From: Alkalihalobacillus sp. CinArs1
GTDB lineage: Bacteria; Bacillota; Bacilli; Bacillales; Guptibacillaceae
Assembly (NCBI RefSeq): GCF_947387515.1
Contig: NZ_CANDOB010000002.1
Span: 248,001-312,000 of the forward strand
Direction of reading: 5' to 3'
DNA length: 64,000 bases
Notes under the pieces: generated by a model
Seen by the model: only the letters and a program-made list of their open reading frames with translations
What the model was told of the DNA's origin: nothing
Database searches by the model: none
Position numbers and translations under genes: made by a program
Shown here: in pieces, positions 23,844 to 34,343 of the stretch
Layout: the number at the start of each line of letters is the position of its first letter
Numbering within the stretch: position 1 is the first letter of the stretch

Positions 23844-24044
23844 ATGAAAAAGCTATACAAATCAACGCAAGATCGGAAATTATCAGGTGTGTTAGGCGGA
23901 CTGAGTGAAGTTTGGAACATGGATGCAAGCATGTTACGAATTGTTTTCGCGGTGTTGACCGTTTTATTAGTAGGACTCCCGATGGTCCTCATCTATGTGG
24001 TAGCAGCACTAATCTTGCCAGATGATAAGGATGTTTGGGAATAA
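23844..24044 (+). CDS. PspC domain protein
   Basis: This 66-residue protein has KKLYKSTQDRKLSGVLGGLSEVWNMDASMLRIVF followed by one transmembrane helix, which is a complete PspC domain. PspC-like proteins take part in envelope-stress responses. ATG at 23844 is 9 nt after AAAGGTGG. A terminator follows at once. Confidence 0.93.
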   Translation: MKKLYKSTQDRKLSGVLGGLSEVWNMDASMLRIVFAVLTVLLVGLPMVLIYVVAALILPDDKDVWE

Positions 24045-24045
24045 G

Positions 24046-24072
24046 GTGAAGACAGTAGTCTTCACTTTTTTT
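24046..24072 (+). terminator. Rho-independent terminator
   Basis: The 8-bp stem GTGAAGAC/GTCTTCAC is followed by seven T after pspC. Confidence 0.9.
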
Positions 24073-24094
24073 ATTGAGAAGGAGGGAAACGTGC

Positions 24095-24775
24095 ATGAAG
24101 GCAGTTCTTTTTGACCTAGATGGAACCTTATTAAATCGAGATGCTTCGCTCGAAGCATTCATTCGTGACCAATACGACCGCTTTCCACAGGTAGTGGGTC
24201 ACATTCCGAAGGACGTATATTGTGAAGCATTTATCAAATTTGATCAGCGCGGTTACGTTTGGAAAGATAAGGTGTATCAACGGATGATCTCAGAATTCAA
24301 GTTGAAAGGTGTGACCCCTGAGGAACTATTACACGACTACGTAAGCGAATTTAAGCATCACTGTGTCCCGTTTCCAAATCTCGTAGCGATGCTTGAAGAG
24401 CTAACGTCTCGTAACCTTACGTTAGGGATTATTTCTAATGGATTTGGACAGTTTCAGATGGATAATATAAAAGCGCTAGGCATTCAAGGTTATTTTGATG
24501 CGATTTTCATCTCAGAGTGGGAAGGATTAAAGAAGCCAGAGGCGAACTTGTTCTATCGGGCACTGAGTAAGCTCGGTGCATTGCCAGAAGAGAGCTTATT
24601 TATCGGTGATCATCCTGAGAATGACGTACACGCTGCCAAGCGAATCGGGATGAAGGGAGTCTGGAAGAAAGATAATCATTGGGAAACACCGGATGCTGAT
24701 GCGGTGATCGATGATCTGATAGAGCTTCCACGTTTACTCGATAAACTGGAGCCAGAGAAGGAGCGAAAACATTGA
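24095..24775 (+). CDS. HAD family hydrolase
   Basis: This 226-residue haloacid-dehalogenase-fold enzyme has motif I AVLFDLDGTLLN (nucleophile Asp near residue 8), motif II GIISNGFG and motif III/IV KKPEANLFYRAL and FIGDHPENDV. An alpha-helical cap (about residues 18-85) marks subfamily IA, the phosphoglycolate-phosphatase-like group. ATG at 24095 is 8 nt after GAAGGAGGG. It overlaps the next gene by 4 nt. Confidence 0.92.
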   Translation: MKAVLFDLDGTLLNRDASLEAFIRDQYDRFPQVVGHIPKDVYCEAFIKFDQRGYVWKDKVYQRMISEFKLKGVTPEELLHDYVSEFKHHCVPFPNLVAMLEELTSRNLTLGIISNGFGQFQMDNIKALGIQGYFDAIFISEWEGLKKPEANLFYRALSKLGALPEESLFIGDHPENDVHAAKRIGMKGVWKKDNHWETPDADAVIDDLIELPRLLDKLEPEKERKH

Positions 24776-25401
24776 AGCCAGTCATACCGAAAGCACCAAC
24801 GATGCCAGAACTAGCGCAGCATGAATGGAACGAAATCGAAGAGGTCGTTTTTGGAGAAGTGAAGACGCCTCGGCGGTGTGATGTTCTATTTATCTATAGC
24901 GGCACACATCCAGGACACTGGGAAAAAGCGATTGAAGCCTATCACAATGGATATGCGAAAGACATAATCGTCACAGGCGGAAAGAGTTTAACGGGCGTTC
25001 CTCACCCTGATTGGGATGATGAAGTCGCTTCAGAAGCGGATGTGATACTCTCCCACCTTCAGGGTAATGGGGTGCCTAAAGAATGTATCACGTACGAAAA
25101 GAAATCGACCAATACACTAGAAAACGTGATCTATGCGAAGGAAGTGTACGATTTTAGCCGTACGAAATCTGTTATGTACATATGTAAAAGTCATGCAGCA
25201 GGACGCCAGTATCGAACGCTAGCAAAACATCTTCCGAGTTCAATCGAGTACACTTCGTACACGTTTGATTGTACCTATAACGGTGTACGCGTTGGAAGGG
25301 GTAATTGGATGGATACAGAGGAAGGTAGAAAACGCGTTTGGGGAGAATACCTAAGGATTCAGCACTATGGAGAGCTAGGGCATATTTTGGCAGTTCAATA
25401 G
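24772..25401 (+). CDS. YdcF/ElyC-type DUF218 family protein
   Basis: This 209-residue protein has the DUF218 pattern: DVLFIYSGTHPGHWEKAIEAY, KDIIVTGGKSL, EKKSTNTLENVIYAKE and MYICKSHAAGRQYRTL. Relatives (YdcF, SanA, ElyC) bind nucleotide-like ligands or act in envelope biogenesis. No transmembrane helix is present, so it is cytoplasmic. The start is TTG at 24772, overlapping the HAD stop, with GAAGGAGCG upstream. Confidence 0.85.
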   Translation: MKPVIPKAPTMPELAQHEWNEIEEVVFGEVKTPRRCDVLFIYSGTHPGHWEKAIEAYHNGYAKDIIVTGGKSLTGVPHPDWDDEVASEADVILSHLQGNGVPKECITYEKKSTNTLENVIYAKEVYDFSRTKSVMYICKSHAAGRQYRTLAKHLPSSIEYTSYTFDCTYNGVRVGRGNWMDTEEGRKRVWGEYLRIQHYGELGHILAVQ

Positions 25402-25420
25402 GATGTAAGGAGATCACAAT

Positions 25421-26191
25421 ATGATTGAACGAATAGCGATTATTACCGGGGCAAGCCGGCCTAAAGGCATTGGTGCCGCGATTTGTCGTGAGCTAGCTTC
25501 AAAAGGGGTTCATGTCTTTTTTACTCATTTCACTCCCTTTGATGAGACGACTGGATATGATGATGCAGATCATCAGTGGGCAGAGACATTTGCGAGTGAG
25601 CTTAGAAGAAAAGGCGTAAACGTTGGTCACATGAACTTGGATCTAGCAGATAAAGACGCGCCGGACCAACTACTTGATAACGTTGAACGAGAGCTTGGGA
25701 AACCTACCATTCTCGTAAACAACGCAGCACACTGCGAAGAAGTAAGCTATAAAGAATTAACAGCTGAAATACTAGCAAAACACTTTGAAGTTAACGTTCA
25801 GGGAGCGTGTATGCTGACGGTGGAATTCGCGAAGCGGTTAGAAGGGACGCGGTTAGGCGGACGGATCGTGAATCTAGTGTCTGGGCAAGACAAAAGTCCG
25901 GTAGCAGGAAACCTGGCCTACATCACATCAAAAGGGGCTATCTCTGCTTTTACAAGGTCACTAGCGACAGAGGTTGCATCTGAAGAAATCACGGTGAATG
26001 CGGTTGATCCTGGCCCGACCGATTCTGGTTGGATGGATCAAGCAACGCAAGAGTTTTTAAAACCTAAGTTTCCAACGGGACGAATCGGGACACCAGAGGA
26101 TGCAGCGCGTTTGATTTCATTTCTCACAAGTGAAGAAGCAAGGTGGGTAACCGGTCAGATCATTCATTCAGATGGCGGATTTTGGGATTGA
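25421..26191 (+). CDS. SDR family oxidoreductase (FabG-like)
   Basis: This 256-residue Rossmann-fold dehydrogenase has the cofactor loop TGASRPKGIG (about residues 9-18), the NNAA motif (LVNNAAH), catalytic Ser in LVSGQ and the AYITSK Tyr-x-x-x-Lys. It closes with GQIIHSDGGFWD. The TGASRPKGIG variant with an inserted Pro-Lys is common in a Bacillus group annotated as 3-oxoacyl-ACP reductase-like. The substrate is unknown. It follows the DUF218 gene by 19 bp and may share its transcript. Confidence 0.92.
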   Translation: MIERIAIITGASRPKGIGAAICRELASKGVHVFFTHFTPFDETTGYDDADHQWAETFASELRRKGVNVGHMNLDLADKDAPDQLLDNVERELGKPTILVNNAAHCEEVSYKELTAEILAKHFEVNVQGACMLTVEFAKRLEGTRLGGRIVNLVSGQDKSPVAGNLAYITSKGAISAFTRSLATEVASEEITVNAVDPGPTDSGWMDQATQEFLKPKFPTGRIGTPEDAARLISFLTSEEARWVTGQIIHSDGGFWD

Positions 26192-26200
26192 ACTAACCTG

Positions 26201-26237
26201 AAAAATGGACACTTATAAGATGGTGTCCATTTTTTTG
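26201..26237 (+). terminator. Rho-independent terminator
   Basis: The stem AAAAATGGACAC/TGTCCATTTTT is followed by a T-run after the SDR gene. Confidence 0.9.
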
Positions 26238-26263
26238 TTTTTTCTATGGATAAACTCGTTTCT

Positions 26264-26296
26264 AATAAAAACAGACCCCGGTTCAAAACCGAGGTC
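26264..26296 (-). terminator. Minus-strand terminator
   Basis: The stem GACCTCGGTT/CCGGGGTC with one mismatch is followed on the minus strand by TTTTT. It ends the unknown gene that stops at 26350. Confidence 0.75.
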
Positions 26297-26349
26297 ACGC
26301 GTAGTGTAAGTTTTATGCAGGTTGTGGAAGGCTGTTGATCTTCCAGGTT

Positions 26350-26736
26350 TTATTTGACTGTATAGCCAAGAATGTGGTCAGAAAATACAACAAACTCATC
26401 TAGGTGAATCTTTGAGTCAGGAGACCCAATTTGAGTAATCGTAACGTTCTTCATATACACATTTGCGGCAACATTGAATAATTGCTTATCAGTGACATCA
26501 ATTGCAGGGTTCAGCTCATAGTCTTGAAGCGCAGCGCCTAGAATTGGTTCTTTTTCAATATCTTCAGCTAGTTCTTTAGCAAACTCTCCTTCTATAAACA
26601 TCGAGTCAGTAACGACTACTAATTTACTGGATTGAGGTCTATTCACTTGCAACTCCTCAATCTTTCCTTCCACTTCTACGAGCGTCAGTTTTTTAAAATC
26701 AATGACTTCTTCATTCTTAATCGCTTGTCCGTTCAT
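26350..26736 (-). CDS. Conserved-looking protein of unknown function
   Basis: This 128-residue acidic, soluble protein has no signal peptide, transmembrane helix or recognised motif. ATG at 26736 follows GGGGGC; the frame continues to 26766 without a better ribosome site. Codon use and the dedicated terminator support a real gene. It is a monocistronic unit facing away from the BCCT region. Confidence 0.65.
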   Translation of the reverse strand: MNGQAIKNEEVIDFKKLTLVEVEGKIEELQVNRPQSSKLVVVTDSMFIEGEFAKELAEDIEKEPILGAALQDYELNPAIDVTDKQLFNVAANVYMKNVTITQIGSPDSKIHLDEFVVFSDHILGYTVK

Positions 26737-26862
26737 AATAGCCCCCATGAAAAGATTGTTGTACATCCCATACTACTATTCAAGGTAACTTTCCCTACTC
26801 CTTCTTCACTTTTTACAATTCTTTTAGAAAGAGTGATTAGCGGGCTTTCTTAAGTTCATTAA

Positions 26863-26894
26863 AAAAACTGTGGTCCTTGCTTGACCACAGTTTT
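26863..26894 (-). terminator. Terminator of the MPDTS-protein gene
   Basis: A perfect 12-bp stem (26864-26875 with 26883-26894) is followed by T-rich sequence on the minus strand. Confidence 0.85.
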
Positions 26895-26898
26895 GTAT

Positions 26899-27486
26899 TT
26901 ATGCATGTACGCGTCTTCTAGCTACTAGAATAAGTGCGCCAGCTAACACTGCGCCACTACCGATCAGCATCATTGTTGGAAGGTTTGTTGAAGTGTCTGG
27001 CATTTCTCCGCCAGATGAATCATTCGCAACATGATTCATACGATCAGCGAATACCCACTTCCCTGCTTCGTATTTGTAGTGAATCGTTAGGGTGTATTCT
27101 CCGCGCATGTTATTTTCATTTGGTTGAGTAAGTTTATAATGATTTTCATTAATTTTTTCGAGGGTGTAATCTTTGTTGTCGAGTAGTCTTACGGGGCCAT
27201 CTCGGGCGATTTTGATGAGTTTTCCATCGCGTTCTTCAAAGAACGTATCAACATAATGATCAGCCAGCGGCCAAACCATTATGCTTTTGAACTCTTGCTC
27301 CAAACGATCGATTGAATCGTACTTCTTTACTTCGTTTTCCTTGTTCGTTTCAAGTTCGATCAGCTCATCGAATTGATTCTCTAACTCCTCCACCGGTGGC
27401 TTTCCATGGTCTTCAGCATAAACTGGGTTGTTCATGCCTAAGAAGAGTAGACCAACTACGACGAGTGCAGAAATGAATCGAAACAA
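26899..27486 (-). CDS. Secreted LPXTG-like protein, paralogue 1 (MPDTS)
   Basis: This 195-residue protein has a Sec signal peptide (residues 1-24, ending VYA), an acidic mature domain opening HGKPPVEEL, and a C-terminal sorting signal. The sorting signal is MPDTS at 162-166, a hydrophobic helix, then ARRRVHA. LPDTS/LPDTA are the motifs used by the class D sortase YhcS in B. subtilis; Met in place of Leu is unusual. The fold matches two paralogues at 29.4 and 30.3 kb. The start is TTG at 27486 after AAGGAGG. Function unknown. Confidence 0.78.
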   Translation of the reverse strand: MFRFISALVVVGLLFLGMNNPVYAEDHGKPPVEELENQFDELIELETNKENEVKKYDSIDRLEQEFKSIMVWPLADHYVDTFFEERDGKLIKIARDGPVRLLDNKDYTLEKINENHYKLTQPNENNMRGEYTLTIHYKYEAGKWVFADRMNHVANDSSGGEMPDTSTNLPTMMLIGSGAVLAGALILVARRRVHA

Positions 27487-27740
27487 TGTAAAACCTCCTT
27501 AATTAGTGTACATATTTTATGTTCCGGGTTTATCTGGAAGTTAAACGTATTTTAGTAAATTTTCTGTAAAAAAATTAATATTTGTGATCTTTCTGTAATA
27601 ATGCAAAGCGTTAAGAACTTTAGAAACTTTTTTGCGATTTTTGTCTTACATCGTCAGTTTTTAGGGTAATAGGGGGGAGGGACCTTATTCGCATAGGTTT
27701 TATACAGCAGCATTCAAATCGTTATGATGAGGTGAAAGGA

Positions 27741-29255
27741 TTGAAGAACGTTACGTCGGTTTTTTGGTACGGATTATTGATTTGTGGATTAGTAGTCCTA
27801 TGGGGAGCAGTAGCTCCATCTAATTTAGAAAGCGTCACATCAGCTGTGACAGGATATATATCAACACAGTTCGGATGGTATTATCTCTTAATCGTTATGG
27901 TCATTCTAGGATTTTGTATCTACTTAATCTTTTCGCCATTTAAAAATATTAAGCTTGGTGGAAAGAATGAAAAGCCCGAGTTTCCGCTTGCAACATGGTT
28001 TGCGATGCTCTTTAGTGCAGGCATGGGAATGGGCATGGTGTTTTGGACTACTGCTGAGCCAATTTCTCACGCATTTAAAAGTAGTCCGAACGGACAAGAA
28101 GGAACGCCTGAGGCCATTCAGCAATCTCTCGAGTATTCATTCTTTCATTGGGGCGTCCATGCGTGGGCAGTGTACTCGTTAGTTGCCCTCGTGCTGGCAT
28201 ACTTTAAATTCCATAAAGGGTACCCGGGGTTGATCAGTGCCACGCTCATTCCGCTGTTCGGGAAGAAAAGAATGGAGGGAATAGCAGGGACGTTGATCGA
28301 TACGCTTGCGGTCGTCGCGACAGTTGTAGGAGTCGCTGCAACGCTTGGATTTGGAACGGCTCAGATTAATGAAGGGTTAGCGTTTCTCTTTGGTACTCCG
28401 AGTAACTTTGGAATGCAGCTTTTGATCTTAGTTGTGTCAACGATTCTTTTCATCGCATCTGCATGGTCAGGAATTAGTAAAGGAATAAAGTATTTAAGTA
28501 ATATCAACTTAGGATTAGGCTTTGTATTACTTCTAATGCTGCTTATCGTTGGACCAACGCTTTATATCATGAACATGTTTACGAATACGATCGGAGGTTA
28601 TTTTACAAACTTCTTCGATATGAGTTTCAATATGAATCCAAACAACGAAGACCGTCAGTCATGGGTGAAAGGATGGACGGTGTTCTACTGGGCATGGTGG
28701 ATCTCATGGTCTCCGTTCGTCGGAATCTTTATTGCGAGAATTTCACGAGGACGTACGATCAAAGAATTTATGCTTGGCGTACTCTTCGTTCCATCGATCG
28801 TCTGCTTCATCTTTTTCTCAGTGTTCGGGGTATCAGCACTCGATCTTCAGCAGCAGGGGATCGCAATGATCTCAGATTATTCTCTTGAAACGGCGACGTT
28901 CGCCGTGCTTGAGCAGTATTCACTAGGGACGCTCATGACGATCATCACACTCTTTGTGATCGCGATTTTCTTTATCACGTCAGCAGACTCTGCGACGTTT
29001 GTGCTTGGGATGCTCAGTACGACAGGTAGCCTGAATCCAGCCGCACCTGTGAAGATTCTCTGGGGACTTAGTCTTTCTGCAATGGCAGCGATCATTATCT
29101 ACTTCGGAGGGACACAGGGACTCCAGAACATGCTTATCATCGCAGCCTTCCCGTTCTCCGTCGTGATCCTCATGATGGGATACTCATTCTTTAAAGCCGC
29201 AAATGCGGAAGTGAAAGAGAATAAGACAAATATACGTACGAATAAAGCGAGTTGA
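27741..29255 (+). CDS. BCCT family compatible-solute transporter
   Basis: This 504-residue, 12-helix transporter has the BCCT signature GMGMGMVFWTTAEP (about residues 93-106) and the conserved TM8 segment WTVFYWAWWISWSPFVGIF. Relatives (OpuD, BetL, EctT) import glycine betaine, choline or ectoine with Na+ during salt stress. TTG at 27741 follows GAGGTG by 6 nt; GTG at 27732 lies inside that site. It stands alone between genes for the LPDTA paralogues. An ectoine hydrolase is encoded 15 kb away. Confidence 0.93.
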   Translation: MKNVTSVFWYGLLICGLVVLWGAVAPSNLESVTSAVTGYISTQFGWYYLLIVMVILGFCIYLIFSPFKNIKLGGKNEKPEFPLATWFAMLFSAGMGMGMVFWTTAEPISHAFKSSPNGQEGTPEAIQQSLEYSFFHWGVHAWAVYSLVALVLAYFKFHKGYPGLISATLIPLFGKKRMEGIAGTLIDTLAVVATVVGVAATLGFGTAQINEGLAFLFGTPSNFGMQLLILVVSTILFIASAWSGISKGIKYLSNINLGLGFVLLLMLLIVGPTLYIMNMFTNTIGGYFTNFFDMSFNMNPNNEDRQSWVKGWTVFYWAWWISWSPFVGIFIARISRGRTIKEFMLGVLFVPSIVCFIFFSVFGVSALDLQQQGIAMISDYSLETATFAVLEQYSLGTLMTIITLFVIAIFFITSADSATFVLGMLSTTGSLNPAAPVKILWGLSLSAMAAIIIYFGGTQGLQNMLIIAAFPFSVVILMMGYSFFKAANAEVKENKTNIRTNKAS

Positions 29256-29268
29256 ATTAGGAGTATTG

Positions 29269-29300
29269 AAGGAAGCTGAATGGGTCAGCTTCCTTTTTTT
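29269..29300 (+). terminator. Rho-independent terminator
   Basis: The stem AAGGAAGCTGA/TCAGCTTCCTT is followed by a T-run after the BCCT gene. Confidence 0.92.
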
Positions 29301-29321
29301 GTATAAATTAGTGGTAATTAC

Positions 29322-29349
29322 TTGAATTTAGACCTCGCTATGGTAGTAT
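29322..29349 (+). promoter_or_regulatory. Extended -10 promoter of LPDTA paralogue 2
   Basis: TTGAAT (29322-29327), 16 nt and TGG-TAGTAT (-10 at 29344-29349). The same arrangement recurs at 30165-30192. Confidence 0.65.
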
Positions 29350-29433
29350 TATGAACAGGCGTAAGATTACATCAATATTACGAAAGTTAAAATTATTACA
29401 TAAACGCGCCAAAAACTTTTTGGAGGTTTTGTA

Positions 29434-30063
29434 ATGACTAGAATTCTTTCTGTACTCGTCATGGTCACGTTACTGTTTATGGGTTTCCAAAACACTGCGT
29501 CAGCACATGGACACGGAGAGCCACCGGTAAAGGAGATTGAAGAGAAGTTTCTTGGTTTTTATAATAATTTGAACGCCGATCCTGAAACACATGTTGTAAA
29601 CAACTATCATTCCATGGAAGAGATGGAAAAAGTCTTTGCACAAATTATGGTTCCTGGGCTTGCTGAAGCATATGTTAGTGAATTTTTTAAGGAAGAGGAT
29701 GGGAAGCTCCTTCACCGACCTCAAGATGGTCCATCATCGATCGAATTCAATTCCCATTATGATCTACAAAAAGTGAACAACAACCACTATAAGCTATCTC
29801 AAAAATTAACGGGAGAATTGCACGGCGGCCAAACGCTTACAATCGATTATATATACCAATCAGGGAAGTGGATTTTCGGAAACCGAAACAACATTCTTCC
29901 AGAAGTTCATGTCGATGGGAGTACTGACGACAACCACGACGAGACTACAGGTGATCAATTGCCTGATACAGCTACATTCTTCCCGACATCTATCATGGTC
30001 GGTGTTAGTGTCATGCTTGTTGGTGCACTTTTACTAGTTGCTAGAAAACGTTCAAACGCTTAG
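29434..30063 (+). CDS. Secreted LPDTA sortase-substrate protein, paralogue 2
   Basis: This 209-residue protein has a signal peptide (residues 1-24, ending ASA) and a mature domain opening HGHGEPPVKEIEE. The core is GKLLHRPQDGP ... NNHYKLSQ ... LTIDYIYQSGKWIFGNRNN. The wall-sorting signal is LPDTA (176-180), a hydrophobic helix and ARKRSNA. Expected location is covalently attached to peptidoglycan by a class D sortase, which is not in this window. Promoter and leader are near-duplicates of those of paralogue 3. No enzymatic motif is visible. Confidence 0.85.
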   Translation: MTRILSVLVMVTLLFMGFQNTASAHGHGEPPVKEIEEKFLGFYNNLNADPETHVVNNYHSMEEMEKVFAQIMVPGLAEAYVSEFFKEEDGKLLHRPQDGPSSIEFNSHYDLQKVNNNHYKLSQKLTGELHGGQTLTIDYIYQSGKWIFGNRNNILPEVHVDGSTDDNHDETTGDQLPDTATFFPTSIMVGVSVMLVGALLLVARKRSNA

Positions 30064-30164
30064 TTAATAGGTTCATATTATGAGAATTGCTGATTTGTCA
30101 GCTTTATTCTTATGTAAGACATGGCTTGTATTGGAATCTTTTTGCACAAACTAATGGTAAATAC

Positions 30165-30192
30165 TTGCATTCGAATGAGACTATGCTAGTAT
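30165..30192 (+). promoter_or_regulatory. Extended -10 promoter of LPDTA paralogue 3
   Basis: TTGCAT (30165-30170), 16 nt and TGC-TAGTAT (-10 at 30187-30192). It is a diverged copy of the promoter at 29322-29349. Confidence 0.65.
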
Positions 30193-30277
30193 ACTAGACA
30201 GGCGCAAGATTACAGTCATATTACAAAGATTAAAATTATTACATAGACGCGCCGAAAAATTTTCAGGAGGTTTTACA

Positions 30278-30889
30278 GTGAAAAGAATACTTTCCGCACT
30301 CGTTATTGTCACTGGTTTACTGTTTATGGGGTTCCAAAACACAGCATTAGCTCAGGATCATGGAGAGCCCCCAGTAAAGGAATTAGAAGCGGATTTTAAC
30401 GAGTTATTACAAGTAAAGAATGAAGAAAGCTCACTTATTTCAAAAGGCTACGATACTATCGAGAAGTTGGAGCAAGTCTTTGGCGAAATTATGGTCCCTG
30501 CACTTGCAGAAGTGTATGTTGGAAGTCTCTATAAAGAAGAAGATGGAAAGGTCATGGTCCTACCACAAGATGGTCGCCAAACAATCGATTTCAATCGTGA
30601 ATATGATTTTACAAAAGTGAATGACAATCATTACAAGCTTTCACAAGTTGCCACAAGCGACCTGTATGAGGGTCATACGTTAACAATCGATTATATCTAC
30701 AAATCTGGTGAATGGATTTTTGGTAACCGTAATAACCTTCTTCCAGAAGTGCATGTAGATGGTGGAGAGGAAGAAGGAGATCAATTACCTGATACAGCAA
30801 CACCATTTCCAGCGTACATGTTGATCGGCGCAGGTATCATGATGAGTGGTGCAATCGTATTAGTTGCTAGAAAACGCTCAAACGCTTAA
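30278..30889 (+). CDS. Secreted LPDTA sortase-substrate protein, paralogue 3
   Basis: This 203-residue protein is clearly related to paralogue 2. Shared features are the HGEPPVKELE opening, IMVPALAEVYV, the QDG turn, NDNHYKLSQ, LTIDYIYKSGEWIFGNRNN and LPEVHVDG. The sorting signal is LPDTA (170-174), a helix and ARKRSNA. The start is GTG at 30278 behind AGGAGG. The pair arose by tandem duplication that included the promoter and leader. The function is unknown. Confidence 0.85.
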   Translation: MKRILSALVIVTGLLFMGFQNTALAQDHGEPPVKELEADFNELLQVKNEESSLISKGYDTIEKLEQVFGEIMVPALAEVYVGSLYKEEDGKVMVLPQDGRQTIDFNREYDFTKVNDNHYKLSQVATSDLYEGHTLTIDYIYKSGEWIFGNRNNLLPEVHVDGGEEEGDQLPDTATPFPAYMLIGAGIMMSGAIVLVARKRSNA

Positions 30890-30907
30890 TAGAATAATAG
30901 AGTTGAA

Positions 30908-30940
30908 AAGGGAAGCTGAACATGCAGCTTCTCTTTTTTT
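30908..30940 (+). terminator. Rho-independent terminator
   Basis: The stem GGGAAGCTG/CAGCTTCTC (with a wobble) is followed by a T-run after paralogue 3. Confidence 0.88.
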
Positions 30941-31048
30941 GTTTTGTTAAAGAATTGTTTCTCTCCGCGGTCTTCTAAAATTTAACAGAAAAAGGATTTT
31001 TTATGTTACTCTAATGATAGTAACCAAATAACGTAAGGAGTTCGGTAG

Positions 31049-31201
31049 GTGAAGAAGTTGGAGGAAGAAATATATGAGCTGCGGATGGCGCTTTACGAAG
31101 TGGCGTTTGAAGCAGATACTTTTTCAAGTGAAGAAGTCATAGAACTAAGTCAAAAGCTGGATGAGAAATTAGTGAAACTTCAAATAGAGAAGGAAGAGTA
31201 A
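31049..31201 (+). CDS. Spo0E-like aspartyl-phosphate phosphatase
   Basis: This is a 50-residue helical-hairpin protein with the Spo0E signature LSQKLDEKLVKLQ near its C-terminus. Members dephosphorylate Spo0A~P and delay sporulation. It starts at GTG 31049, 8 nt after AAGGAG. It precedes a small membrane protein by 23 bp. At this size the match rests on the SQ-x-LD core and length, so it is likely rather than certain. Confidence 0.75.
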   Translation: MKKLEEEIYELRMALYEVAFEADTFSSEEVIELSQKLDEKLVKLQIEKEE

Positions 31202-31224
31202 ATGTAGTTGAAAGGAGTATGCGG

Positions 31225-31512
31225 TTGCCAACTTCAGTGCTAGGTAGAGTTTGTGCAGTGCCTCTTTTCTTTTATTTGGGTGTGTTGATCGCTTTGGTCG
31301 TAGGGATCTATCAAGATGCTCCACTTGGAGCAATCACACTAGTGATGAAGGTTGGGATCTTTGCGGGCTTTCCTATCTTCATCATTTCTATCTTCGCGGT
31401 TAGAAAAGAAATGTTCTATAAAAAATTTGTTCCTGTACTTTCACTAGTCATAAGTTTTTTCTCGTTAATCGGCACATTCTTTTTCATGTTTATATGGTCT
31501 TTCGGAGGATAA
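31225..31512 (+). CDS. Small three-helix membrane protein
   Basis: This 95-residue protein has three predicted transmembrane helices and no recognised domain. TTG at 31225 is 7 nt after AAAGGAG, whereas the ATG at 31219 is only 1 nt from it. It is probably co-transcribed with the Spo0E-like ORF. The function is unknown. Confidence 0.6.
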   Translation: MPTSVLGRVCAVPLFFYLGVLIALVVGIYQDAPLGAITLVMKVGIFAGFPIFIISIFAVRKEMFYKKFVPVLSLVISFFSLIGTFFFMFIWSFGG

Positions 31513-31545
31513 AAAAATCCGCTCAAACTTTGAGCGGATTTTACT
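31511..31545. terminator. Bidirectional terminator
   Basis: The stem AAATCCGCTCA/TGAGCGGATTT lies between A and T runs, between the small membrane gene and glnA. Confidence 0.9.
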
Positions 31546-31546
31546 T

Positions 31547-32869
31547 TTACTTATTCATATAACGTTCAACTTCCCACTGACTTACGTTCAGAGAGTAGTC
31601 GATCCATTCTTTTTCTTTGTCTTCGATGTAGCATCTAGACGTATGCTCACCTAGAGCGTCGATTACGACTTGGTCTTCTTTAAGTGCTTTGATCGCTTCT
31701 TTTAGGTTTGTTGGAAGCGTTGGTACATCATCTGTAGACACTTCGTAAAGGTTACGAGACTCTGGTTCACCTGGGTCAAGCTCGTCACGAATTCCTTCCA
31801 GACCTGCGTGTAGTACTGCAGCTAGCGTCAAGTAAGGGTTCGCTGTAGGGTCTGGGTTACGGATCTCAAAACGTGTACCCATTCCACGAGTAGTTGGAAC
31901 GCGGATCATACAGCTACGGTTAGAGTGAGACCAAGCAACACTTACAGGTGCTTCATAACCTGGTACAAGACGCTTATATGAGTTAACGTTCGGGTTTGTA
32001 ATTGCCGCAAGACCATTCGCATGGTGAAGAATACCAGCCATGAAGTGTTTCATCGTATCAGAAATTCCGTCTTCTTTGTTTTCGTCAAAGAATGCACTCT
32101 CGCCATCTTTAAATAGAGAAAGGTGGCAGTGCATACCAGAACCGTTCTCACCTGCGAATGGTTTAGGCATGAATGTCGCGTGATAATCATGTCCAGTCGC
32201 AACGTCTTTTACAACGCTCTTGAACGTTTGGATGTTGTCTGCAGCTTTCAATACACTGTCAAAACGGAAATTGATTTCGTGCTGTCCTTTTGCTACCTCA
32301 TGGTGAGAAGCTTCCATCTCAAAACCATATTTCTTCAACGTGCGAACGATATCGCGTCGTACTTGGTCACCTTTGTCTTTAGGTGATGCATCGAAGTAAC
32401 CACCGCGGTCATTCATTTTGCGGATCGGGTAGCCTTCATCATTCAGTTGGAATAAGAAGAATTCTGGTTCAGGTCCAACGTTTACAGTATAGCCAAGATC
32501 TTGTGCTTCTTTCATCGCTCGTTTTAAAATATAGCGAGGGTCACCTTCGAACGGTTCACCGTCTGGCGTGTGAATATCACAAATGAAGCGTGCGATGCAG
32601 TCCGTGTCGACCGCTTCAGGAAGTACTTTGAATGTTTCAAGATCTGGGAACAAGTACATATCACTTTCTTGAATATCTGAAAAGCCTGCGATTGAAGAGC
32701 TGTCGAACATCGCTTCATTGTTCATTACACTTTCGATCTCTTCAACAGGAAGCTCTACGTTCTTCGTTTCACCAAGCATGTCTGTAAACTCTAGGCGAAT
32801 AAATTCTACATTCTTTTCATGAACCTCATCCAAAATAACTTGTTTAATGCCTTCTTTTGTAATCGTCAT
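31547..32869 (-). CDS. glnA: Glutamine synthetase type I
   Basis: This 440-residue enzyme makes glutamine from glutamate, ammonia and ATP. Active-site landmarks are NVGPEPEFFLF, NGSGMHCHLSLF, NPNVNSYKRLVPGYEAP and SNRSCMIRVP. It is the GSI-alpha type, lacking the adenylylation loop. Where B. subtilis GlnA has feedback-sensing Arg62 (EGFVRI), this protein has Asp65 (AGFSDI), so feedback inhibition and regulator contacts may differ. No glnR adjoins, so it may be a second paralogue. A GlnR/TnrA-type box lies 74 bp upstream. Confidence 0.95.
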   Translation of the reverse strand: MTITKEGIKQVILDEVHEKNVEFIRLEFTDMLGETKNVELPVEEIESVMNNEAMFDSSSIAGFSDIQESDMYLFPDLETFKVLPEAVDTDCIARFICDIHTPDGEPFEGDPRYILKRAMKEAQDLGYTVNVGPEPEFFLFQLNDEGYPIRKMNDRGGYFDASPKDKGDQVRRDIVRTLKKYGFEMEASHHEVAKGQHEINFRFDSVLKAADNIQTFKSVVKDVATGHDYHATFMPKPFAGENGSGMHCHLSLFKDGESAFFDENKEDGISDTMKHFMAGILHHANGLAAITNPNVNSYKRLVPGYEAPVSVAWSHSNRSCMIRVPTTRGMGTRFEIRNPDPTANPYLTLAAVLHAGLEGIRDELDPGEPESRNLYEVSTDDVPTLPTNLKEAIKALKEDQVVIDALGEHTSRCYIEDKEKEWIDYSLNVSQWEVERYMNK

Positions 32870-32942
32870 ACATTACCTCACCTTTAGAAAGTTTTTTAAC
32901 TATTCACTATTTTACCGATAACAACGTATAAGTGTGGATTTA

Positions 32943-32959
32943 TGTAAGGAATCCTGACA
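32943..32959 (-). promoter_or_regulatory. GlnR/TnrA binding box
   Basis: TGTAAGGAATCCTGACA matches TGTNA-N7-TNACA at every defined position, 74 bp upstream of the glnA start. Nitrogen-dependent control of glnA is the natural reading. Confidence 0.8.
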
Positions 32960-33148
32960 TAAAATTTCACTTTGTCTATCAGCTATAGAAATAAATACCC
33001 TTATTTCGTTCACGTAAACCGCTCAAATAACAATCCATGATAGAAATGGTTTCCAAATGCTTCACTTTGCAAGACAATGATAGTATGTGTAAAAAGATTT
33101 GAAATTTGTATCACTTTGTATCAAAAATTTTATTCATTGAGGTGTCGT

Positions 33149-33928
33149 ATGCAGAAGCATGAATTAAAAGCGTTGTTTGATGAAGAAATGAGAAAAAACG
33201 TTACGCCTCCAGGCTTCCGAAGGGAAGAAACCGATCATGTTATTCGTCACGTTTCAGTCCATCAAGATGAACATGGTTTCATCATCTTTTCTAACTTGAC
33301 GAATGCTGACGCTAAAAAGGTTATTACGGGTGAAAAGGACCGCTTTGCTACATTAAAACAGGAGTTTGAGTGGAAAGTTTATAGTTATGACGAGCCTTCA
33401 AACCTTGTGGATCTTTTAGAAGATGAAGGGTTTAAGAAAGGTGAAAAAGAAGCGCTTATGGTCATCCCGCTTTCTGATGACCACTTTTTATTAAGTCACG
33501 ATACATCACATGTGAAGGAAATAACCGATTTGGAAGGAATCAATGCCATCATGAAGCTTGAAGAAAGCATATGGAATCACTCTTTCGCAAGCTTAGGAGA
33601 ACGGTTATGGCGTGACTTTAGAAATACGAATTCACTCTCCTTATATGGGATATATGAAGCTGGCGAATTGGTAAGTGCTGCCTGGATGTACTTGGAGGGA
33701 GAGAATTTTGCGAGCATGTGGGGTGGATCCACGTTACCACAGCATAGGAAAAAGGGACATTACACGGCACTTTTAGCTGCACGTGCGAAAAAAGCGAAAG
33801 AAATGGGGCATCCTATTTTAATGGTCGATGCAAGTCCGATGAGTGAACCAATTTTACAAAAGTGTGGATTTGAACGATTAGGGTATTCGTATGGCATGCT
33901 GTATCCTGGAGGGAAGTCACATGATTAA
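33149..33928 (+). CDS. GNAT family N-acetyltransferase (two-domain)
   Basis: This 259-residue protein has a divergent N-terminal half (about 1-125) and a C-terminal acetyltransferase domain. SAAWMYLEGENFASMWGGSTLPQHRKKGHYTALLAARAKKA holds the acetyl-CoA loop. This is the plan of large Bacillus GNAT proteins. ATG at 33149 is chosen from TGAGGTG; upstream sequence in the longer frame is not protein-like. It overlaps the next acetyltransferase by 8 nt. Confidence 0.85.
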   Translation: MQKHELKALFDEEMRKNVTPPGFRREETDHVIRHVSVHQDEHGFIIFSNLTNADAKKVITGEKDRFATLKQEFEWKVYSYDEPSNLVDLLEDEGFKKGEKEALMVIPLSDDHFLLSHDTSHVKEITDLEGINAIMKLEESIWNHSFASLGERLWRDFRNTNSLSLYGIYEAGELVSAAWMYLEGENFASMWGGSTLPQHRKKGHYTALLAARAKKAKEMGHPILMVDASPMSEPILQKCGFERLGYSYGMLYPGGKSHD

Positions 33929-34343
33929 AGAAATGAAGTCGGTTGAAGAAATAAGGGAAGCCTTTCTCGTAATGAGTGAGCTGCGCACGAATTTAGATGA
34001 AGAATCGTATTTAGAGTATGTGGATGAAGCGCGTAAAAAAGACATGTACCACCTGTATGCACTCTATGAGGAAGGGGAAATCGTAGCCGTCATCGGCTTT
34101 ACACCGATGATCACCTTATACTACGGAAGAAGTGTATGGGTTTATGATCTTGTGACTCGAAAGGAAGATCGCTCGAAAGGGTACGGCAAGTCGCTCCTTT
34201 CCTTTGTGGAGAAGTGGGCTAAAGACCATGGCTATAGTTCCATCGCACTTTCCTCAGGTCTTCAAAGGCATGATGCGCATCGATTTTATGAAGAAAAGAT
34301 GGCTTATGATAAAGTGAGCTATGTCTTTAAAAAGGAACTCTAA
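33921..34343 (+). CDS. GNAT family N-acetyltransferase
   Basis: This 140-residue acetyltransferase has VWVYDLVTRKEDRSKGYGKSLLSFVEKWAKD (about residues 76-106) as the CoA-binding motif A. SGLQRHDAHRFYEEK follows as motif B. ATG at 33921 follows GGAGGG by 7 nt. Overlap with the preceding GNAT gene shows a two-gene operon. The substrate is unknown. Confidence 0.9.
   Translation: MIKEMKSVEEIREAFLVMSELRTNLDEESYLEYVDEARKKDMYHLYALYEEGEIVAVIGFTPMITLYYGRSVWVYDLVTRKEDRSKGYGKSLLSFVEKWAKDHGYSSIALSSGLQRHDAHRFYEEKMAYDKVSYVFKKEL

Follow-up and report, generated by a model that had tools for sequence, protein, structure and literature searches.

How Gram-positive cells control their lethal wall hydrolases is an active question. 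Bacillus subtilis restrains these enzymes partly by a secreted inhibitor, IseA (YoeB, PF16800), under the control of WalRK. IseA is described as blocking LytE through substrate mimicry (PMC13204101) and iseA as being repressed by WalR (PMC7299342, PMC4478028). IpdA, which resembles IseA by Foldseek and not by sequence, is reported to act on a polysaccharide deacetylase in sporulation (PMC12700454). Class D sortases form the second point of comparison. Their substrates include YhcR and YfkN in B. subtilis (PMC3222306), LPXTA proteins are known from B. cellulosilyticus, the substrates are predicted to be mostly enzymes, and the sortase genes often adjoin those of their own substrates (PMC3617157). 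Here we describe three genes from Alkalihalobacillus sp. CinArs1 (genome G000, genus Guptibacillus) whose products combine a predicted IseA-like domain with a class D sorting signal. They lie around a BCCT transporter gene in a stretch of 64,000 nt, hereafter the window (contig NZ_CANDOB010000002.1, positions 248,001-312,000). We favour, with moderate confidence, the view that their products are IseA-like proteins, linked covalently to the wall, that inhibit peptidoglycan enzymes, and that WalRK probably controls the genes. This view draws on computed paralogy, sorting signals, the presence of a sortase, its adjacency in relatives, fold similarity, remote homology and box enrichment.

The first-pass annotation had reported three paralogous secreted open reading frames (ORFs), and all three were confirmed. 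Protein 1 (26899-27486, minus strand; 195 aa, TTG start) carries the motif MPDTS, whilst protein 2 (29434-30063, plus strand; 209 aa, ATG start) and protein 3 (30278-30889, plus strand; 203 aa, GTG start) carry LPDTA. In an alignment, the other two paralogues are 61% and 44% identical to protein 2, and the motifs H-G-[EK]-P-P-V and N-x-H-Y-K-L and the sorting tail are present as the annotation described them; signal peptides were assigned by eye, without a predictor. Protein 3 is a tandem copy of protein 2, and the two genes have their own, closely similar leaders. Protein 1 is the orthologue of the first of the copies in Guptibacillus algicola (91% identity). The ratio of nonsynonymous to synonymous substitution rates (dN/dS) is 0.26 for the tandem pair and 0.08 for the gene of protein 1 against its G. 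algicola orthologue, falling to 0.009 when the mature domain is taken alone (98.5% identical at dS 0.69). These low values point to purifying selection on the genes.

The tails of two of the three proteins pass the NF058670 test for LPxTATN-type sorting signals (cut-off 32 bits), with 34.3 bits for protein 1 (26911-27003, minus strand) and 33.9 bits for protein 3 (30785-30877, plus strand); the putative signal of protein 2 lies at 29959-30051 on the plus strand. A search of the genome for a class D sortase, which the annotation had proposed as a check, returned one. Of three sortases present, a single LPxTATN-specific class D enzyme was found at C2:130726-131295 (NF058671, 234 bits against a cut-off of 140), encoded by a solitary gene roughly 117 kb before the window. 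Together with the NF058670 tails, this enzyme upholds the earlier reading of the proteins as class D substrates. The other two sortases come closest to class F, for which they score 150 and 142 bits where 166 would be needed; one of these class F-like enzymes is encoded beside a DUF4397 protein with an MPQTG-type tail (L002 1489-2927, G000:C5) and the second lies at C1:1034244. A further class D substrate of the genome is an Excalibur-domain protein at C2:673857. The processed acidic surface proteins of TIGR04383 are also alike in being acidic surface proteins with an LPXTA-type tail. However, only the C-terminal part is matched, at 14.4, 22.7 and 21.4 bits where 50 are required, and this assignment was rejected. 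Class D sorting of the three proteins is well supported, and covalent anchoring to peptidoglycan is most likely, as judged from the sequence. The system shares with described class D substrates the sorting signal, a cognate sortase and sortase-substrate adjacency in relatives. It differs from substrates said to be mostly enzymes (PMC3617157) in its apparently inhibitor-like cargo.

The adjacency was seen in a survey of 397 genomes of the order. At a threshold of E < 1e-55, the wall-anchored subfamily occurs in six of them (the window genome, G. algicola, G031, G066, G146 and G176), and in the last four the gene lies directly upstream of a class D sortase gene. A contig scan with two peptide patterns, which reach close relatives only, gave eight named loci; in five of these the sortase gene immediately follows the family gene (Planococcus halotolerans, P. 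salinarum, Planomicrobium sp. Y74, Thalassobacillus cyri and T. pellis). In total, family gene and sortase are adjacent in nine other genomes. A tree built from 26 class D sortases places the orphan enzyme of the window genome in a group of 19 with 100/100 support, which also takes in all nine family-linked sortases, those of G. algicola and G014, and seven others from the genus; the order within this group is weak, the root of the tree is a midpoint, the program issued a long-branch warning, and one sortase each was taken from seven genus genomes having two matches each. The nine family-linked sortases are 55-67% identical to the window genome's enzyme, as compared with 34-36% for seven class D sortases outside the group. 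Sortases of the same group adjoin Excalibur-type substrates instead in the genus genomes G007 (L158 3077-4292), G009 (L159 3192-4275) and G001 (L160 2861-3999) and in G014 (L163 3407-4634), so that the partner gene varies by lineage. In G066 (L127, G066:C22), the signal-peptide region of the IseA-like gene contains an in-frame stop, a pseudogene or a sequencing error, whilst the neighbouring sortase gene is open.

Over their mature domain, the window proteins matched no Pfam or NCBIfam model above chance; only the anchor region was matched. AlphaFold models, which the annotation had suggested consulting alongside Pfam, do resemble a described protein, IseA. The domain, whose function the annotation had called unknown, is thus predicted to have a known fold. 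The domain of protein 2 (29506-29916, plus strand; model m29ab3f2240d8), built on a 40-sequence alignment, has a predicted local distance difference test score (pLDDT) of 91.1 and a predicted template modelling score (pTM) of 0.84. That of protein 1 (27019-27414, minus strand; model m7d75a194e51e), built on 16 wall-anchored sequences alone, reaches pLDDT 93.1 and pTM 0.86. For both models, ranks one to three of a Foldseek search of the PDB are B. subtilis IseA (2rsx; 8wt4, with CwlO; 8i2e, with LytE), at probability 1.00, E-values of 0.0012-0.0033 and TM-scores (TMq) of 0.53-0.58. Both searches then show a drop, the fourth entry being weaker than the third by a factor of 6-8. The IseA hypothesis had been recorded before any structure model was built.

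Remote homology points the same way. PF16800 matches five of 56 divergent family members (E <= 0.01, best 6.4e-6) and none of the other 51. Relaxing the threshold to E <= 0.1 adds matches to the lipoprotein homologue in 10 of the 14 genomes of the genus, with G008 the best at 3.2e-5 and the window genome not among them, and PF16800 exceeds its curated cut-off in none of the 14. An alignment of 56 of the 86 domain hits (A6; a row was removed if it had fewer than 95 residues or was 75% or more identical to one already retained) was compared as a profile with eight IseA orthologues, giving a probability of 89 and an E-value of 2.2e-6; the profile of the eight orthologues recovers the PDB entries of IseA at 1e-50. 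Moreover, the IseA segment GKLAVPIGDGD, which we take to be its inhibitory loop entering the active site, aligns without gaps on GKLLHRPQDGP. Of the wall-anchored rows, all 16 have the acidic residue of this loop, and 15 have the glycine after it. PDB sequence searches (a single protein with phmmer, A4 and A6) returned lysostaphin (E 0.92), CNNM3 (E 0.48) and RAI1 (E 0.17), none of them convincing. An IseA-like fold of the mature domain is well supported by the models. We call the window proteins IseA-like and do not file them as members of PF16800 because they do not match it. With IseA they share the predicted fold, secretion and the register of the D-G loop. They differ from it in that identity is 11-12%, they lie outside PF16800, they add a C-terminal class D sorting signal and they occur as three wall-anchored paralogues in one genome.

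A WalR-type box precedes most of the family genes, as it does iseA. Matches to the WalR consensus TGTWAH-N5-TGTWAH (PMC9210968) lie at 27554-27570 (one mismatch, 67 bp before the start codon of gene 1), 29366-29382 (one mismatch, 51 bp before that of gene 2) and 30209-30225 (exact, 52 bp before that of gene 3). Within 150 bp upstream, three of the 16 wall-anchored genes have an exact box and 12 have one with at most one mismatch, whereas dinucleotide shuffles of the upstream regions (n=300) average 2.0 and never exceed 6. Leaving out the two leaders that had prompted the idea gives 10 of 14, against a shuffle maximum of 6. The lipoprotein homologues of the genus have a box in 1/13 cases, the same as the shuffles, and other genes in 8/105 (family members L126 and L130 excluded). 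The window genome also contains YycI, a partner of WalK. Taken at sequence level, WalRK probably controls the three genes. The direction may be repression, as for iseA: in the tandem pair the boxes start 17 bp past a -10-like TAGTAT (29344-29349 and 30187-30192, by eye), a position that suits repression. The TTGAAT/TTGCAT-16-TAGTAT pairs to which these hexamers belong were read by eye and are under the threshold of the promoter scan, which gave 14 sites across 26200-31600 against 12.7 expected and thus no evidence of promoters. By eye, a sigma-B-like promoter candidate lies upstream of gene 1 (GTTTAA with the CCGGAACA block). The tandem leaders (29350-29432 and 30195-30276) have common GGCGY...RCGCGCC arms and repeated ATTACA-like elements. 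A common RNA structure in them is unsupported (z-scores of -2.09 and -0.54, with two different folds), and no Rfam family was found within 24000-34000.

A number of these results count against an anchored IseA-like inhibitor. The TM-scores are only 0.53-0.58, with root-mean-square deviations of 3.7-5.9 and no Foldseek E-value below 0.001. In the second Foldseek search, short metallo-beta-lactamase matches reach probabilities of 0.96-1.00 (TMq < 0.30), so the Foldseek probability by itself is not specific to IseA. PF16800 gave no match to the three window proteins at E <= 1, nor to any protein of the window genome at E 0.1. A narrow profile of wall-anchored members reaches IseA only at probability 8 (E 0.004), and neither A4 nor A6 reached it when run as a profile against the PDB. 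As to anchoring, the tail of protein 2 scores 25.8 bits, under the NF058670 cut-off, the window genome has its sortase gene at a distance from the family, and tblastn found no sortase in the 10-kb stretches of Halobacillus sp. Marseille-P3879, T. devorans and G. algicola that hold the family gene. Class D sortases are found in 326 of the 397 genomes (E <= 1e-20), which makes co-occurrence uninformative; for this reason it is adjacency that carries the argument. Finally, four of the 16 wall-anchored genes have no WalR-type box within one mismatch, the upstream regions are related, so that the box counts are not independent cases, and the promoter scan gives other promoter-like sites overlapping the boxes of the tandem pair.

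Under the reading that we favour, the proteins would be exported, and the class D sortase would cut the sorting signal and link them covalently to peptidoglycan. The exposed IseA-like domain would then inhibit peptidoglycan-remodelling enzymes near its attachment site, with the conserved [D/E]-G-P loop inserting into the catalytic groove in the manner of IseA. WalRK would set expression through the upstream boxes, and those of the tandem pair may lie past the promoter, a layout consistent with repression. By analogy with IseA, the most likely targets would be NlpC/P60 DL-endopeptidases. First candidates are the three NlpC/P60 enzymes encoded in the window genome, of which one has SH3 domains and the other two have peptidoglycan-binding repeats. 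A wall-enzyme context is also seen in the fusion of the domain to a VanY-type D-Ala-D-Ala carboxypeptidase domain (L029 1324-2466, G043:C18). At one further locus, in G146 (L129 1-4432; G146:C33:32500-40000), the gene for the IseA-like protein and its class D sortase neighbour directly follow ftsE-like, ftsX and PcsB coiled-coil/M23 peptidase genes. At the G031 locus, the IseA-like gene and the sortase are closely preceded by a gene for a PG_binding_1 and 3D-domain wall protein (L130 1947-2885, G031:C40). The G146 and G031 arrangements are single cases.

The identity of the target is where the proposal meets its strongest competitor. IseA-fold proteins are described as inhibiting different wall enzymes (PMC12700454). 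The window proteins could therefore be wall-anchored and IseA-like in fold and still act, through a different surface of the fold, on another class of wall enzyme. This might be a peptidoglycan deacetylase, as reported in the case of IpdA, an LD- or DD-carboxypeptidase, or hydrolases of foreign origin made by competitors or phage. Three members of the IseA family with different targets and binding modes are on record (PMC12700454), and both the fusion to a VanY-type carboxypeptidase and the variation of the loop among the paralogues (QDGP, QDGR, RDGP) are compatible with such a switch. However, the acidic residue and glycine of the loop stay in register throughout the wall-anchored subfamily in the way noted above, which favours binding of the IseA type, and we regard another target class as a serious but rather unlikely alternative. 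It is considerably less probable that the fold was kept without inhibition, in a structural or sensing wall protein serving as a sensor of peptidoglycan fragments or ions, or as a surface spacer. The weak PF16800 signal, with only 98 columns aligning with IseA, would allow for this; the strong constraint on the mature domain (dN/dS 0.009) and the conserved loop suggest a specific partner, and the IseA-fold proteins described so far in PMC12700454 are inhibitors.

The first-pass annotation had suggested an undescribed wall-anchored system next to the transporter, possibly tied to osmotic stress. The osmolyte transporter gene (27732-29255, plus strand; TIGR00842, 521.9 bits against a cut-off of 407.55) is divergent from gene 1, with an intergenic region of 245 bp between them, and a terminator-like hairpin at its end (29268-29296) separates it from the tandem pair. 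Two species have the family next to a BCCT gene, most other carriers come from genera known for halotolerance, and each of the 14 genus genomes has four to six BCCT matches (E <= 1e-120). A closer inspection of the linkage reveals that it is not general. The arrangement is found only in the window genome and G. algicola, and even there it is rearranged, with two tandem copies on one side in G. algicola and one plus two copies on opposite sides in the window. Elsewhere the family adjoins the class D sortase: by tblastn, none of the nine sortase-linked stretches (7-10 kb each) has a BCCT gene, and among 16 context stretches one occurs only in that of G. algicola (L054). Conversely, of the 12 genus members that lack wall-anchored copies, 10 keep an orthologue of the BCCT gene at 76-79% identity, and the transporter is therefore not tied to the family. 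The BCCT gene looks like a chance neighbour, outside the system, and the same synteny evidence leaves the osmotic tie unsupported and makes it the least probable explanation, one that we consider very unlikely. On the other side of gene 1, a 138-aa ORF (26350-26766, minus strand) has only a weak, sub-threshold HydF_dimer match.

The wall-anchored proteins belong to a broader domain family, present in 89 of the 397 genomes (E <= 1e-18) as short lipoprotein-like or signal-peptide proteins (by eye), as the VanY fusion and as longer proteins. Anchor-like tails were found on 15 of 75 distinct domain ORF ends, a count that includes one cut copy, and every one belongs to the wall-anchored subfamily. 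The tail pattern has a length limit, and the G146 tail was missed by it. The window genome has a fourth homologue (C1:686694-687059), which lacks a sorting tail and appears lipoprotein-like by eye. NCBIfam models already describe both the sorting signal and the sortase. The novelty lies in the cargo: here the wall anchor carries an IseA-like domain, and the sortase gene has stayed beside that of the protein across several genera. A literature search, with most subscription papers outside its scope, found no paper joining IseA with a sortase and none on anchored autolysin inhibitors. We tentatively suggest, as a possibility that we would not yet bet on, a covalently immobilised layer of autolysin inhibitor, controlled by WalRK and fixed by sortase D, which would brake endopeptidases in place and not through an inhibitor that diffuses. 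In this lineage the brake would have been amplified to three paralogues of varied loop, with a membrane lipoprotein form alongside, and would have replaced canonical IseA, of which the genus showed no copy.

Because the domain is spread over 89 of the 397 genomes, takes such varied forms and escapes PF16800 (E <= 0.01) in 51 of the 56 divergent members scanned, many hypothetical proteins of the order become testable as wall-enzyme inhibitors. If the proposal is true, a sortase-anchored IseA-like protein would add spatial control to the restraint of wall hydrolases in the form of a covalently fixed brake, and class D sortases would gain a regulatory cargo.

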